A stretch of 64,000 nucleotides of DNA from positions 310,001 to 374,000 of the forward strand of contig NZ_JAUTAJ010000002.1 of assembly GCF_030818485.1 (NCBI RefSeq). Reading direction: 5' to 3'. Position 1 is the first letter of the stretch. Each line of letters starts with the position of its first letter. The notes under the pieces are model-generated. The model did not search any database. It worked only from the letters and a program-made list of their open reading frames with translations, and was not told the origin of the DNA. Positions 17,740-60,894 of this stretch are shown piece by piece. Source of the DNA: Pseudoroseomonas cervicalis (GTDB lineage: Bacteria > Pseudomonadota > Alphaproteobacteria > Acetobacterales > Acetobacteraceae). Position numbers and translations under genes: made by a program.

Positions 17740-17772
17740 CGGTCAGGCAGGCGGTCAGGCAGGCGGGTCAGG
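17740..17772. repeat. Short tandem repeat of a 12-bp unit
   Basis: Two and a half copies of a GGCGGTCAGGCA-like unit lie between the start of the nitronate monooxygenase gene and the end of hmp; the last copy contains the hmp stop codon. It is probably slippage-derived; no function is apparent. Confidence 0.45.
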
Positions 17773-18982
17773 CGGCCAGCAATTCGTCGGCGGGGCCGAA
17801 GAACTCGTAATGGATCTGCCCGGCGGGCACACCGAGCCGCGTCAGCGCCGCGGTGAGATCGCGCAAGAAGGGGCGCGGGCCGCACAGATAATAATCGGCA
17901 CCGGCGAGCGGCGTGTTCGCGGCCAGCCACTCCGCAGAGATGCGGCCGGCGATGTCGAAATCCTCGCCCGGGCGGTCCTGCGGCCGCGGGCCTTCGTAAA
18001 AGACGCTCGCGCGGATGCGGCCGCCGGAGGCCGCGGCCAGCCCGCGCACCTCCTGCCCCAGCGCATGGGTGGCGCCGGAGAGGGTGCCATGCACGAACTG
18101 CGCCGCCGGCCCCTCCGCCCGCGCCGCCAGCGCGTGCAGCATGCTGAGGAAGGGCGTCTGGCCGACCCCGCCGCTGAGCAGCACGACGGGCCGCTCGCAT
18201 TGTTCGGGCAGCACGAAATCCCCGGCCGGCGCGGCGGTCCGCAGGATCGCGCCGGGCTGCACGGCATCATGCAGCCAGTTCGAGGCGAGGCCCTGCGGCT
18301 CCCGCTTGACGCTGATGCGGTAGGTGGCGTCGCCGGGGGCCGAGGAGATGCTGTAATTGCGCTTCAGCGGCGCCTGGCCCGGGATCTCCAGCCAGAAGGT
18401 CAGGTACTGGCCCGGCCGGTGCCGCAGCACCGCGCCGCCATCCGCCGGCGCCAGCAGGAAGGAGGTGATGACCTCGCTCTCCGCCCGCTTCTCCACCACG
18501 CGGAAATCGCGCCAGCCATTCCAGCCGCCGGGGGCGGCGGCCTGGTCGTGGTAGATCTGCTTCTCCCGCCCGATCAGCAGATCGGCCAGGAACCAGTAGG
18601 CCTCGCCCCAGGCGGTGAGGATCCCGGGCGTCGCCGCCTCGCCCAGCACGTCCTGGATGGCGCCGAGCAGCGCCTCCGCCACGGCCGGGTAGTGCTCCGG
18701 CAGGATGTTCAGCCCGACATGCTTCTGCGCGATGCGCTCCACCGCGGCGGCCAGCACGCCCGGCGCCTCGATGTTGCGCGCATAGGCCAGGATGGCGCCG
18801 GCCAGCGCCTTGGGCTGCGCGCCGGTCTCGCCATGATGCGACTGGTTGAACAGGTCGCGCATGGCGGGGTCGCGGAACAGCCGCTCATACATGCGGCGGG
18901 TGATGGCCAGGCCATGCGCCTCCAGCGCCGGAACGGTGGCCTTGACGATCGCGACGGTCGACGCGCTGAGCGGTCGGGGCAT
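17768..18982 (-). CDS. hmp: Flavohaemoglobin, nitric oxide dioxygenase
   Basis: This 404-residue cytosolic enzyme converts NO, O2 and NAD(P)H to nitrate. Residues 1-140 are a globin with proximal His in AQKHVGLNI and the usual LFNQSHH segment of helix C to E. Residues about 150-255 are the FAD domain (RPGQYLTFWLEI, RNYSISSAPG). The NAD domain has LLSGGVGQTPFLSML and YLCGPRPFLRDL, ending HYEFFGPADEL. Length equals the family norm. A GGAGGG site precedes the ATG at 18982. It is divergent from nsrR with two NsrR-like operators between, so it is expected to be induced by NO. Confidence 0.96.
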   Translation of the reverse strand: MPRPLSASTVAIVKATVPALEAHGLAITRRMYERLFRDPAMRDLFNQSHHGETGAQPKALAGAILAYARNIEAPGVLAAAVERIAQKHVGLNILPEHYPAVAEALLGAIQDVLGEAATPGILTAWGEAYWFLADLLIGREKQIYHDQAAAPGGWNGWRDFRVVEKRAESEVITSFLLAPADGGAVLRHRPGQYLTFWLEIPGQAPLKRNYSISSAPGDATYRISVKREPQGLASNWLHDAVQPGAILRTAAPAGDFVLPEQCERPVVLLSGGVGQTPFLSMLHALAARAEGPAAQFVHGTLSGATHALGQEVRGLAAASGGRIRASVFYEGPRPQDRPGEDFDIAGRISAEWLAANTPLAGADYYLCGPRPFLRDLTAALTRLGVPAGQIHYEFFGPADELLAA

Positions 18983-18995
18983 GGCGGCCCTCCAT

Positions 18996-19018
18996 AAGGT
19001 ATATCTCACGCACACCTT
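18996..19018. promoter_or_regulatory. NsrR-type operator 1 (hmp side)
   Basis: A 23-bp imperfect dyad with the 11-1-11 geometry of known NsrR sites: AAGGTATATCT on the left and ACGCACACCTT on the right of a single centre base. The outer arms extend to a perfect ATAAGGT/ACCTTAT pair at 18994-19020. It lies 14 bases upstream of the hmp start codon, where bound repressor would block transcription. Confidence 0.72.
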
Positions 19019-19033
19019 ATGGCGCTTGGCGCG

Positions 19034-19056
19034 AAGGTGTAAACCCCCTACATCTT
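19034..19056. promoter_or_regulatory. NsrR-type operator 2 (nsrR side)
   Basis: A second 23-bp 11-1-11 dyad: AAGGTGTAAAC and CCCTACATCTT, with the AAG-TGT/ACA-CTT halves characteristic of NsrR sites. It ends five bases before the nsrR ATG, which suggests autorepression. The centres of the two sites are 38 bp apart. Confidence 0.72.
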
Positions 19057-19060
19057 TCGC

Positions 19061-19552
19061 ATGCGCCTCACCTTCCACACCGACTACGCGCTGCGCGCCC
19101 TGATCTATCTCGGGCTGCGGCAGGACCGGCGCGTCTCGATCCGCGAGATCGCCGAGGCGCACCGCATCTCGGAGAACCATCTGGTCAAGGTGGTGCACAA
19201 TCTCGGCCGCGGCGGCTTCATCGAGACGACACGCGGCCGCGGCGGCGGGCTGCGCCTGGCCCGCGCGCCGGAGCTGATCCGGATCGGCGAGGTGGTGCGC
19301 TTCACCGAGGAGGACATGGCGCTGGTCGCCTGCTTCCAGCCGGCGCTGGAGGGGGGCGGCTGCGTGCTGATCCATGCCTGCCGGCTGCAGAGCCTGCTGG
19401 GCGAGGCGCTGGCCGCCTTCATGGCGGTGCTGGACGGGCAGACGCTCGCCGATCTGCTGCAGCCGCACCGGGCGGTGATGGCGGCGCGGCTGGGGCTGCC
19501 CGCCCCGTTGGAGGCGCCGGCCGGCACCGGCCCGACGCGGCCCGGCGCATGA
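19061..19552 (+). CDS. nsrR: NO-sensing Rrf2-family repressor NsrR
   Basis: The 163-residue regulator has the Rrf2 winged helix: MRLTFHTDYALRALIYLG at the start, IREIAEAHRISENHLVKVVH as recognition region, and a GLRLARAPELIRIGEVVR wing. Three cysteines, C91, C101 and C107, are placed to ligate an iron-sulphur cluster in the ACFQP...CVLIHAC segment; spacing between the first two is longer than in E. coli NsrR. NO destroys the cluster and relieves repression. The divergent hmp gene and two NsrR-like sites support this identity over IscR, which has its own isc neighbours. Confidence 0.92.
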   Translation: MRLTFHTDYALRALIYLGLRQDRRVSIREIAEAHRISENHLVKVVHNLGRGGFIETTRGRGGGLRLARAPELIRIGEVVRFTEEDMALVACFQPALEGGGCVLIHACRLQSLLGEALAAFMAVLDGQTLADLLQPHRAVMAARLGLPAPLEAPAGTGPTRPGA

Positions 19553-57917: not shown

Positions 57918-58045
57918 CGATTTCTTAAATTACTAACGGTTTATTACTTCACCCGCCCGGATCATTTTTTCATCTGTATTTGAAGGCAGAATAAAAAATC
58001 ACTTTTCCGTGGAATTCCGCTGCGGACAGGTCTAAATTGCTGCGT
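57918..58045 (+). promoter_or_regulatory. AT-rich promoter region of globin-type chemoreceptor
   Basis: In the 299-base gap 57836-58134, the bases from about 57918 to 58045 are strikingly AT-rich (TTTCTTAAATTACTAAC; ATCATTTTTTCATC; AATAAAAAATCACTTTTCC), unlike anywhere else in the window. No gene or RNA was recognised in it. It probably holds the chemoreceptor promoter, perhaps with a nucleoid-protein target; I could not pick certain -35 and -10 elements. Confidence 0.4.
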
Positions 58046-58134: not shown

Positions 58135-59475
58135 ATGTCGCATAGCCTCAGTGCCGAGCAGAAGCGGCGCTTCGCCGTGTTCCGCATGACCGAGGAGGAT
58201 GTGGCGACGCTGCAGGGGCTGTCCGGCTTCGCGCAGCAGCGCCTGCCCGCGCTGCTCGAGGCGCTGCATGCCGAGCTCTCCGCCTGGCCGGAGATCCGCG
58301 ATGCGCTGAGCAAGCCCGAGGTGCACAAGGTGCGCGTGGCGCACTGGATCCGCGTCGCCTCCGGCCAGTTCGGCGAGGGCTTCATGGATTCCGCCCGGGC
58401 CCTGGCCAGCGCCTTCTACAAGCATGGCGTGCCCGGCTATGCGGTGACCATCTGCCACGCCACGGTGATCAACGCCGTGCTGGCCGAGCTGGAGGCGACG
58501 CCCCGCCAGGGCGGCTGGTTCGCCCGCAAGGACCAGGGGCTGCAGCTGCGCCGGGCGCTGAACCGCGCCGCCTGGGTCGACCTCGAAGTGCTGCTGGAAA
58601 CCTATGCCGAGGCCGAGAAATCCAGCAAGCAGGCGGCCATGAACAGCGTGGCCGATGATTTCCAGAAGCGCGTGCAGGGCGCAATCGGGTCCATCGGCCA
58701 GTCGGTGCGGCAGATGGAGGAGGCGGTGCGCACCATGTCGGGCAGCGCCGAGCAGTCGCTGCGCAATGTCGAGGCGGTGGCCGGCGCCAGCCAGGCCGCC
58801 TCGGGCGAGGTGGCGACCGTCGCCGCCGCGGCCGACGAGCTCTCCGCCTCGGTGAACGAGATCACCCGCCAGGTCAGCCAGTCCGCCACCATCGCCACCC
58901 AGGCGGTGGCCGAGGCGCGGCGCACCGACGGCATCGTGCAGGCCCTGGCCGAGGGCGCCGGGCGCATCGGCGAGGTGGTGCGGCTGATCAGCGACATCGC
59001 CGGCCAGACCAATCTGCTGGCGCTGAACGCGACGATCGAGGCGGCGCGCGCCGGCGATGCCGGCAAGGGCTTCGCGGTGGTCGCCTCGGAGGTGAAGAAC
59101 CTCGCCACCCAGACCGCCAAGGCCACCGAGGATATCAGCCAGCAGATCGGCCAGATCCAGTCGGCGACCGGCGACGCGGTGCGCGCCATCCAGGGCATCG
59201 CCTCGACCATCGACGGCATCAACCAGGTGGTGTCCAGCATCTCCGCCGCCGTCGAGGAGCAGGGCTCGGCCACCGCCGAGATCGCCCGCAGCGCCCGCAT
59301 GGCGTCCGAGGGCAATCAGCGCGTCACCAACCTGATGCAGGAGGTCGGCAAGCGCGCCGAGGAAACCCGCGAGATCGCCGGCACGCTCAGCCGCAGCTCG
59401 GGCGAGCTGGGCACGCAGACCGGCGGGCTGAACACCGCGGTGGGCCAGTTCCTGGACAATCTGCGCAGGGCTTGA
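58135..59475 (+). CDS. Soluble chemoreceptor with globin-type sensor domain
   Basis: A 446-residue methyl-accepting protein with no membrane helix. Residues 1-170 form a globin-coupled-sensor-like domain: [20 protein letters not shown] then [16 protein letters not shown]. Residues 180-446 are the signalling domain with [20 protein letters not shown] and [11 protein letters not shown]. In aligned globin sensors the proximal haem His is in V-H-x-R-I-G; here that place is F94, with H97 three residues later, so haem binding is uncertain. Known members sense O2. It lies just before the small-peptide genes. Confidence 0.9.
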
Positions 59476-59541
59476 GACGGAACCGCCTTGTTGTTGCGGG
59501 ATCGGTGCGGTGTGATGGGGCGGCACGCAGAGGAGCCCGCC

Positions 59542-59703
59542 ATGCCTGACGAGCAGACCAAGCCCGCCATCCCGCCGGCGCCCCGGGCCGGCAAGAACCC
59601 GCTGCCCCCCGCCGCGCCGGCACCGCAGGCCGCGGCGGAATTGTCGGCCGAGGAGCTGGACCAGCTGGCCGGCGCCGGGCCCCGCCATGCGCATTTCTCC
59701 TGA
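59542..59703 (+). CDS. Small peptide 1 (53 aa) with double-glycine-leader-like C-terminus
   Basis: AGAGGAG stands before the ATG. The product has a Pro/Ala-rich N-half (AIPPAPRAGKNPLPP) and then AELSAEELDQLAG-A followed by the tail GPRHAHFS. The LS-x-EEL-x-x-L-x-G-[AG] pattern resembles the leader of bacteriocin-like peptides cleaved after Gly-Gly or Gly-Ala. The last 22 residues align without gap to the next gene's. No exporter with a C39 peptidase is nearby. Function unknown; secreted peptide or signal is a guess. Confidence 0.6.
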   Translation: MPDEQTKPAIPPAPRAGKNPLPPAAPAPQAAAELSAEELDQLAGAGPRHAHFS

Positions 59704-59721
59704 CGCGGTCGCGGGCCAGAC

Positions 59722-59871
59722 ATGACGCAGCATGATCCGAAGGCGGCGCCCACCCCGGCGCCGCCCGCATCCGGGCCGGCCGCGCCGCCCACGCCTCCGC
59801 CCGCCGAACTGTCGGAGGAGGCGCTGAACGGTATCGTCGGCGGCGTCGCCCCGGGGCGCGGCCTGTCCTGA
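59722..59871 (+). CDS. Small peptide 2 (49 aa) with double-glycine-leader-like C-terminus
   Basis: Starts 18 bases after small peptide 1 stops. Pro/Ala-rich N-half (AAPTPAPPASGPAAPPTPPP) then AELSEEALNGIVGG and tail VAPGRGLS. The ELSEEALNGIVGG match to double-glycine leaders is better than in peptide 1. The two C-terminal 22-residue modules share A-E-L-S, E, L, G and final S positions. Its ribosome site is weak, so it may depend on translation of peptide 1. It seems to have arisen by tandem duplication. Confidence 0.58.
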   Translation: MTQHDPKAAPTPAPPASGPAAPPTPPPAELSEEALNGIVGGVAPGRGLS

Positions 59872-59895
59872 ACGCCAGGCCGGGCGCTGCCCGGC

Positions 59896-60894
59896 CTAGT
59901 CGGGCTGGATCCGCGCCTCCCGCACCACCTGGGTCCATTCGGCCAGCTCGCGCTCCACCCGCGCCTGCAATTCCGCGGGCTGCTGCAGGCGGATGATGGC
60001 GCCCTGCTCCTCCGCCCGGCGGCGGAATTCGGCGCTGTCCACCACGCTGTTGCAGGCCTCGCTCAGGCGCCGCAGCACCGGCTCGGGCGTGCCGGCGGGG
60101 GCGAAGACGGCGAACCAGCCGATCACCTCCAGATCGGGCAGCCCGGCCTCGGCCAGCGTCGGCACATCGGGCAGGGCCGGGTGGCGCTGCGCCGCGGTGA
60201 TGGCGATGGCGCGCAACCGGCCCTCGCGCACGAAGGGCATCAGCGGCGGCGGCGTGGTCATCATCATCTGCACCCGCCCGGCCACCAGATCCTGCGTCGC
60301 CGGGCCGGTGCCGCGATAGGGCACATGCACCATCTGCGCCCCGCTGCGTAGCTTCAGCAGCTCCGTCCCCAGATGCTGCAGCGAGCCGGTGCCGGCGGAG
60401 GCATAGTTCAGCTGCCCCGGATGGGCCTTGGCATAGGCCACCAGCTCGGCGAGCGTCGTCGCCGGGATGGAGGGGTGCAGGAAGATCACCTGCGGCGCCT
60501 CCAGCAGCAGGGAGACGGCGGCGAAGTCGCGCTTCACGTCATAGCCGGGATTGGGCAGCAGCGCCGGCGTGCCGGTGTGGTAACCGGAATACTGCACCAG
60601 CAGCCTGGTCCCGTCGGGGCGGGCCCGCGCCACATCCTGCGTGCCCAGCGCGCCATTGGCGCCGGCCTTGTTCTCCACCACCACCGTCTGGCCGAGCTGG
60701 CGCGACAGCGGCTCGGCCAGCAGGCGCGCGGCGAAATCGGTGGTGCCGGCGGGCGCCGTCGGCACCACCAGGGTGATGCTGCCCGAAGGCGCCCCGCCTT
60801 GCGCCCGGGCGCCGCGCGCCCCGGCCAAGGCCGCCCCCGCGGCCAGCGCCGCCCCCAGCGCCCGGCGGCGCCCCATGCCTGTCGTTCCGGACAT
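59896..60894 (-). CDS. Tripartite tricarboxylate transporter (Bug) substrate-binding protein
   Basis: A 332-residue periplasmic receptor: Tat-like signal (GRRRALGAALAAGAALAG), then ITLVVPTAPAGTTDFAARLL, GQTVVVENKAGANGALGTQDV, ARPDGTRLLVQYSG, LNYASAGTGSLQHLGTEL, MVHVPYRGTGPATQDLVAG and PDVPTLAEAGLPDLEV, all Bug/TctC landmarks. ATG 60894 has GGGAGG upstream. It is convergent with the small-peptide genes and has no TctAB beside it; ligand unknown. Paralogue of the gene at the left end. Confidence 0.94.
   Translation of the reverse strand: MSGTTGMGRRRALGAALAAGAALAGARGARAQGGAPSGSITLVVPTAPAGTTDFAARLLAEPLSRQLGQTVVVENKAGANGALGTQDVARARPDGTRLLVQYSGYHTGTPALLPNPGYDVKRDFAAVSLLLEAPQVIFLHPSIPATTLAELVAYAKAHPGQLNYASAGTGSLQHLGTELLKLRSGAQMVHVPYRGTGPATQDLVAGRVQMMMTTPPPLMPFVREGRLRAIAITAAQRHPALPDVPTLAEAGLPDLEVIGWFAVFAPAGTPEPVLRRLSEACNSVVDSAEFRRRAEEQGAIIRLQQPAELQARVERELAEWTQVVREARIQPD

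Follow-up and report, generated by a model that had tools for sequence, protein, structure and literature searches.

Two adjacent small genes behind a protoglobin chemoreceptor gene of Pseudoroseomonas cervicalis as candidate precursors of C39-exported octapeptides

What two very small genes encode, when they stand in tandem behind the gene of a globin-type chemoreceptor and end in what looks like a bacteriocin leader, is the question raised by this locus of Pseudoroseomonas cervicalis. The window, i.e. the whole stretch of 64,000 nucleotides that was analysed, holds both open reading frames (genes A and B, 53 and 49 codons; Table 1) where an initial annotation had placed them, and the adjoining receptor earns its description as globin-type, with PF11563 (55.9 bits) and PF00015 (109.3 bits) both over cut-off. 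Our preferred account, to which we give a probability of roughly 0.6, is that A and B are precursors for a C39 exporter, that octapeptides would be released from them and that signalling is the preferred role. A and B would carry a double-glycine leader first and the core last; the last 13 leader residues would form a short helix gripped, through positions -12, -7 and -4, by the C39 domain of a peptidase-containing ABC exporter, and cutting after GA or GG together with export would release GPRHAHFS and VAPGRGLS. Judging from the anatomy of the precursors, we consider it quite probable that an NHLM-type C39 exporter cuts and exports A and B, and we tentatively suggest, at rather less than even odds, that the octapeptides act as signals.

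Table 1. Features of the gene A and gene B locus, numbered from the first nucleotide of the window.
Feature	Position	Strand	Description
AT-rich stretch	57936..58035	.	5' of the chemoreceptor gene; possible promoter region; 40-44% GC
Chemoreceptor	58135..59475	+	446 aa; N-terminal protoglobin and MCP signalling domain; PF11563, PF00015
Shine-Dalgarno-like AGAGGAG	59529..59535	+	6 nt 5' of the gene A ATG; basis, sequence
Gene A	59542..59703	+	53-aa precursor; Pro/Ala-rich N-half; leader tip ELSAEELDQLAGA; predicted core GPRHAHFS
Gene B	59722..59871	+	49-aa precursor; Pro/Ala-rich N-half; leader tip ELSEEALNGIVGG; predicted core VAPGRGLS
9-bp hairpin	59877..59897	+	just 3' of gene B; possible transcript end without a T run

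The 22-residue C-terminal module described in the initial annotation was recovered by eye, as the tails of A and B align without gaps over 22+8 residues with common A-E-L-S, E, L and G positions and a final Ser; MAFFT placed a gap within the tail. Residues -2/-1 are GG in B and GA in A, and the leader in front of the predicted core comprises 41-45 residues, followed by a core of 8. What had been called an inverted order is thus the usual one of leader and then core, and the two octapeptides proposed earlier stay in place as the predicted cores after GA and GG. Published leader motif 2, as given in an excerpt of Haft et al. (PMC2887384), reads ELSDEELEAVAGG for N11P and ELSDEQLDAVAGG for NHLP. 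Both A (L-12, L-7, L-4, then GA) and B (L-12, L-7, I-4, then GG) have the anchors of C39 substrates, and by their sequence the 13-residue tips correspond to the double-glycine leader tip of Nif11/NHLP precursors with -12/-7/-4 in register, which upholds the double-glycine reading. In the part of a C39 study that was available (PMC6363468), the last 13 leader residues are enough for cutting by the C39 domain, with -4, -7 and -12 sitting in its groove, GG, GA and GS sites all occur among C39 proteases, GA being accepted, and LahT150 cut a substrate of 13 leader residues plus a 4-residue tail. Since a substrate with four residues past the site was cut in that excerpt (PMC6363468), an 8-residue tail should be no obstacle.

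The tips were further analysed with a strict regular expression ([EDQ][LIVM][ST]x[ED]xLxx[VIL]xG[GAS], with at most 12 residues after it), which was modelled on the published motif and written after inspection of A and B. Among the window's ORFs of at least 30 aa, A and B were the only two matches. No match was obtained in 100 second-order Markov resamples of the window, in the reversed and the complement-only window, in 200 rounds of residue shuffling of the window's 477 ORFs, or in 200,000 shuffles of A and another 200,000 of B.

The anatomy does not coincide with any known family, as neither A nor B came over the cut-off of any NCBIfam or Pfam model. In the search for a Nif11 domain (TIGR03798 / PF07862), A and B gave no NCBIfam or Pfam match at E≤10 save unrelated weak ones, the nitrile-hydratase-like leader domain (TIGR03793) matched neither, and the paralogue C described below gave no NCBIfam match at E≤0.01. 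A and B are therefore unusual in that a Pro/Ala-rich stretch replaces the Nif11 domain and that the core has just eight residues. The family models searched fail to pick up precursors of this class, in which no leader domain can be recognised, so such peptides have probably been missed. Two other classes were considered and rejected. The type-A lantibiotic models (PF04604 / NF040664) give A 14.3 bits against a cut-off of 21.7 and 11.7 against 46, the match is confined to the leader tip, and the core is devoid of Cys. Class II microcins have a short N-terminal GG leader and then a core of tens of residues, and this reading of A and B was ruled out by the 8-residue core.

Gene A has a good Shine-Dalgarno sequence and gene B is without a clear one. 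The coding support for gene A consists of AGAGGAG and the homologues P0002 and P0004, that for gene B of the shared module and paralogue C. From the chemoreceptor gene to gene A, on the same strand, the gap is 66 nt, and 18 nt lie between the stop of gene A and the start of gene B. The T-run terminator scan found none between the chemoreceptor gene and gene A, and a single transcript of receptor, A and B is therefore plausible. The hairpin after gene B (-24.3 kcal/mol in a 40-nt piece, z -3.00, 2 of 200 shuffles equally good) is absent from the output of that scan. An AT-rich promoter had been claimed for the peptide genes: the AT-rich stretch is real (40-44% GC in 50-base bins vs 62-82% in the surroundings), yet it lies before the chemoreceptor gene and not before A, and a search for a sigma-70-like site within it found none.

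Homologues of the module, whose absence was to have spoken against the frames, do exist, although the octapeptide form is rare. P0002 (79% identical to A, from a 2657-base contig with the source label 'lgn') has the core GPRRAHFS and P0004 from Teichococcus deserti (45% to A) has GPRQAHFS, both with the layout of A, so that the A-type core reads GPR[HQR]AHFS across the three. The P. cervicalis genome (G000) itself encodes paralogue C, of 51 aa (G000:C2:240556-240711), with the layout of A and B and the core PVPIRFLS; it was recovered at E 0.009 by profile A2, which had been built without it (the best candidates, at most 150 per genome, were scored). The five precursors, from at least three sources, all have cores of exactly 8 residues ending in FS or LS, and the B and C cores follow a common pattern, x-[AV]-P-x-R-x-L-S.

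Comparison of A with its T. deserti copy showed that the core is the best-kept part of the precursor, though the numbers are small: identity is 7/8 in the core, 7/13 in the motif and 10/32 in the N-half, and the contrast between core and N-half has a p of 0.006 for this pair. The gradient is less steep between A and P0002 (N-half 23/32, motif 12/13, core 7/8). The initial annotation had looked to coding-like substitution as a mark of genuine frames. This is better in the core (pN 0.16, pS 0.53 on 24 sites), which includes synonymous changes such as Ser TCC vs AGC, and weak over the whole gene (pN 0.37, pS 0.46, pN/pS about 0.8). A core that is kept while the N-half drifts points to a defined partner, and for this reason a signalling role is the one that we prefer. 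A core kept at 7/8 positions is moreover a concrete molecule that is readily synthesised.

Further copies were sought more widely. Gene B had no match in the protein database at E≤1. Among the best 7991 candidates, other Pro-type precursors (P0003 and P0005-P0010) have longer tails, and P0011-P0013 (E 0.02-0.19) are too weak to count. Single-sequence searches with A and B in 58 genomes gave mostly compositional matches, and besides the window only one genome, G011, matched A below 1e-4; further matches whose frames were read were mostly unrelated, the exception being G011:C88. Profile A1 confirmed no relative at E≤1e-3 in genome contigs and viral contigs, and a plasmid search gave no match. 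The DNA pattern for GPRxAHFS followed by TRR was matched in 3 of 397 family genomes, one of which (G342) was dropped as its match ends in TGG and not in a stop. Profile A1 matched 2 of 395 order genomes, both of them sources of profile rows (the best candidates, at most 17, were scored); a third A-type source was thus found neither in these 395 genomes, within the same best candidates, nor in the 397 family genomes. The strings GPRHAHFS, GPRQAHFS, PVPIRFLS and VAPGRGLS were not found in the paper texts searched.

The same leader tip is found on other frames. The P. cervicalis genome has Nif11-type precursors in which this tip is followed by a tail of some 8 to 25 residues. Five of its frames were scanned with the Pfam Nif11 model: L114 and L116 (2035-2361) scored over cut-off, L117 and L118 below, and the L075 frame matched nothing; the NCBIfam Nif11-leader scores of the P. 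cervicalis frames were all below cut-off. Scattered Nif11-type frames with this tip and short tails were noted at L114 1528-1800, L116, L117 1561-1809, L118, L113 and L075 7682-7975. A frame of genome G012 (L125) is over the TIGR03798 cut-off with a 10-residue tail, and thus shows a short tail on a clear Nif11 precursor. Another two Pro-type precursors in tandem, whose tails have ~35-42 residues, are encoded at about G000:C4 2260500-2260920 (L112), and both have close homologues in the protein database (P0006, P0008 and P0009, among the best 7991 candidates). In another genus (G179) the tandem precursor frames L218 164-463 and 583-759 end in LSDEALDGVSGG and LSEEALDGVAGG with an 11-residue tail each, the first having a nitrile-hydratase-like domain over cut-off.

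If A and B are exporter substrates, the machine would have to be encoded at a distance. As in the initial annotation, no maturation gene came to light within the window, and no exporter or modification gene was found near A and B. The C39-peptidase ABC genes that it had proposed to look for in the same genome were found elsewhere: PF03412 recognises three strong C39 domains and a fourth at 25.2 bits, just over cut-off. Each of the three carries ECGAA, HFVVLE and NDP stretches, which we take to hold the catalytic Cys, His and Asp. One of them belongs to a complete NHLM system (HlyD, C39-ABC and ABC; G000:C3:108971-115351) in which the three NHLM models all score over cut-off. Its first gene, HlyD, begins with a GTG that overlaps the stop of a 97-aa frame; this frame ends in GELSTEQLDGIAAGG plus 22 residues and has no Pfam or NCBIfam family match. 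The two exporters on C4 reach 850 bits (cut-off 853) and 622 bits for TIGR03796, and in their neighbourhoods larger proteins carry the leaders LPEDALEQVHGG, LPEDALELVHGG and LPEDVLRRIVGG, whose register matches that of A and B. Near them (L073 10274-12844; L074 14788-16030) we observed an 856-aa frame and proteins of 168 and 235 aa with N-terminal LPED..L..[VI].GG leaders; these large proteins are probable long substrates. The machine for A and B would likely be the NHLM system, on another replicon, or one of the two C4 exporters.

The distribution of the module within the genus was compared with that of the exporters. In the 17 congeneric genomes compared, TIGR03796 scores over cut-off in 6, and 8 have a C39 domain at E≤1e-5. 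Leaving out the training rows of the profile, which account for the G011 matches at E<1e-3, and scoring the best candidates, at most 150 per genome, module matches at E<1e-3 occur in 4/6 genomes with an over-cut-off NHLM exporter and in 0/11 without (p 0.006), at E<0.005 in 5/6 vs 0/11, and at E<0.02 in 5/6 vs 2/11 (p 0.018). The co-occurrence therefore depends on the E threshold: within the same candidates, G005 (0.008) and G002 (0.013) have module matches but no C39 match, and G001 has an exporter and no module match below 0.07.

The chemoreceptor itself has no strongly hydrophobic segment (highest 19-residue Kyte-Doolittle mean 1.47) and is therefore, to judge from its sequence, probably cytoplasmic. 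A second protoglobin chemoreceptor gene is found 367 nt from paralogue C, which is convergent to it, with a small ORF between the two (L184 3782-4036, plus strand); this ORF resembles a NepR-type anti-sigma factor by eye only, and its shorter form had no Pfam or NCBIfam match. That both P. cervicalis octapeptide loci are at most 500 bp from one of four such receptors has a chance of ~4e-6 genome-wide and of 1e-4 when confined to the C2 replicon, both calculated post hoc. A search of the 17 genus genomes with PF11563 gave 28 matches, spread over 13 of them, and one match is the window's flavohaemoglobin. The gene in question (17768-19468, minus strand) is flavohaemoglobin-like, with globin, FAD-binding and NAD-binding domains over cut-off, which explains the weak protoglobin match in the window. 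When the protoglobin loci were scanned for octapeptide-type peptides (27 regions; 58 loci, including 30 chemoreceptor-homologue loci, ~1.5 kb on each side), with a positive score from a codon model trained on the window also demanded, only the window and C loci were found. Of the other module matches of the P. cervicalis genome, ten were checked, and each is either >100 kb away from the nearest protoglobin chemoreceptor or on a replicon that lacks such a receptor. Contigs C444, C26, C159 and C93 of T. deserti bear its protoglobin matches, and C83, C88 and C299 bear the peptides, C88 and C299 being short. The conserved chemoreceptor neighbour that was to be looked for thus shrinks to two loci of one genome: the link is suggestive, as it holds at both P. 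cervicalis octapeptide loci and not in T. deserti, and a general link across the genus, when tested, was not supported by the locus scans. The window receptor is 53-54% identical to a P. cervicalis receptor without a peptide and 51% to the one beside C; together with the convergent orientation of C this makes a recent block duplication an unlikely origin of the two loci.

Several other explanations were weighed against that of exported octapeptide signals. The octapeptide could be modified by an enzyme encoded elsewhere and end as a natural product, e.g. an antimicrobial, rather than as a plain signal, as the leader tip is that of Nif11/NHLP RiPP precursors and several Nif11 precursors of this genome are likewise distant from exporters. 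We regard this as unlikely, since the three P. cervicalis cores contain no Cys and only one Ser each, which is terminal, the A core is conserved and not hypervariable, and no modification gene was noticed in the exporter neighbourhoods; in our account the peptides would be unmodified. Distinctly less probable is that A and B bind a C39 or C39-like domain without cargo, as intracellular competitors or regulators of exporters. The motif is the binding part and the leader makes up 41-45 of 49-53 residues, but the tail after the site, which a mere binder would not need, is the best-conserved part of A.

We give very little credence to a direct role of the peptides with the chemoreceptor, for instance as intracellular partners made from its operon: the 66-nt spacing on one strand and the position of C are what this would predict, whereas C faces its receptor gene tail to tail and is separated from it by another small ORF, none of the contigs that carry the T. 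deserti homologues has a protoglobin match, and the other protoglobin loci scanned in the genus have no such peptide. It is just as improbable that the frames are fortuitous or decaying and yield no product. Pro/Ala-rich frames are common in G+C-rich DNA, the whole-gene pN/pS against T. deserti is about 0.8 and B has no clear ribosome site, but the resampled and shuffled controls were empty of the motif, and homologues with the same 8-residue core length occur elsewhere, as does the same layout in C.

Taken together, we favour A and B as precursors of exported octapeptides with a signalling role. A broader idea, namely Gram-negative octapeptide signalling in which soluble, gas-sensing protoglobin chemoreceptors and NHLM-exported octapeptides are encoded by paired genes, we think quite unlikely; if true, such a pairing would couple oxygen sensing or taxis to peptide communication. 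C39 exporters are present in many Gram-negative bacteria, and to our knowledge few small substrates are known for them and peptide pheromones have hardly been described in these organisms.

Gram-positive double-glycine signal peptides (ComC-like) are likewise encoded by small unannotated genes and have a GG leader, a C39 exporter and short products. A and B differ from them by a Pro/Ala-rich leader of ~41-45 residues, a Gram-negative host and the lack of an identified receptor. PatS carries the motif RGSGR, and A, B and C differ from PatS/HetN in that RGSGR is absent from all three. HetC of Nostoc, according to an excerpt (PMC10986499), is a C39 exporter of a Gram-negative bacterium that is thought to export a regulatory peptide. 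The closest likeness in layout is to N11P (TIGR03798 / PF07862), with which A and B share the leader tip (ELSDEELEAVAGG), the cut site, the order of leader and then core and a frequent location apart from the exporter, whereas the Pro/Ala-rich stretch stands in place of the Nif11 domain, the core of A is conserved, and the cores have 8 residues against a published mean of 23. NHLP (TIGR03793) has a mean core of 27 residues and a nitrile-hydratase-like domain that A and B lack, and the conserved core of A is the reverse of the hypervariability reported for NHLP cores; common to both are the tip ELSDEQLDAVAGG and, with the NHLM system (TIGR03794/03796/03797), an exporter of the kind that the P. 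cervicalis genome encodes.
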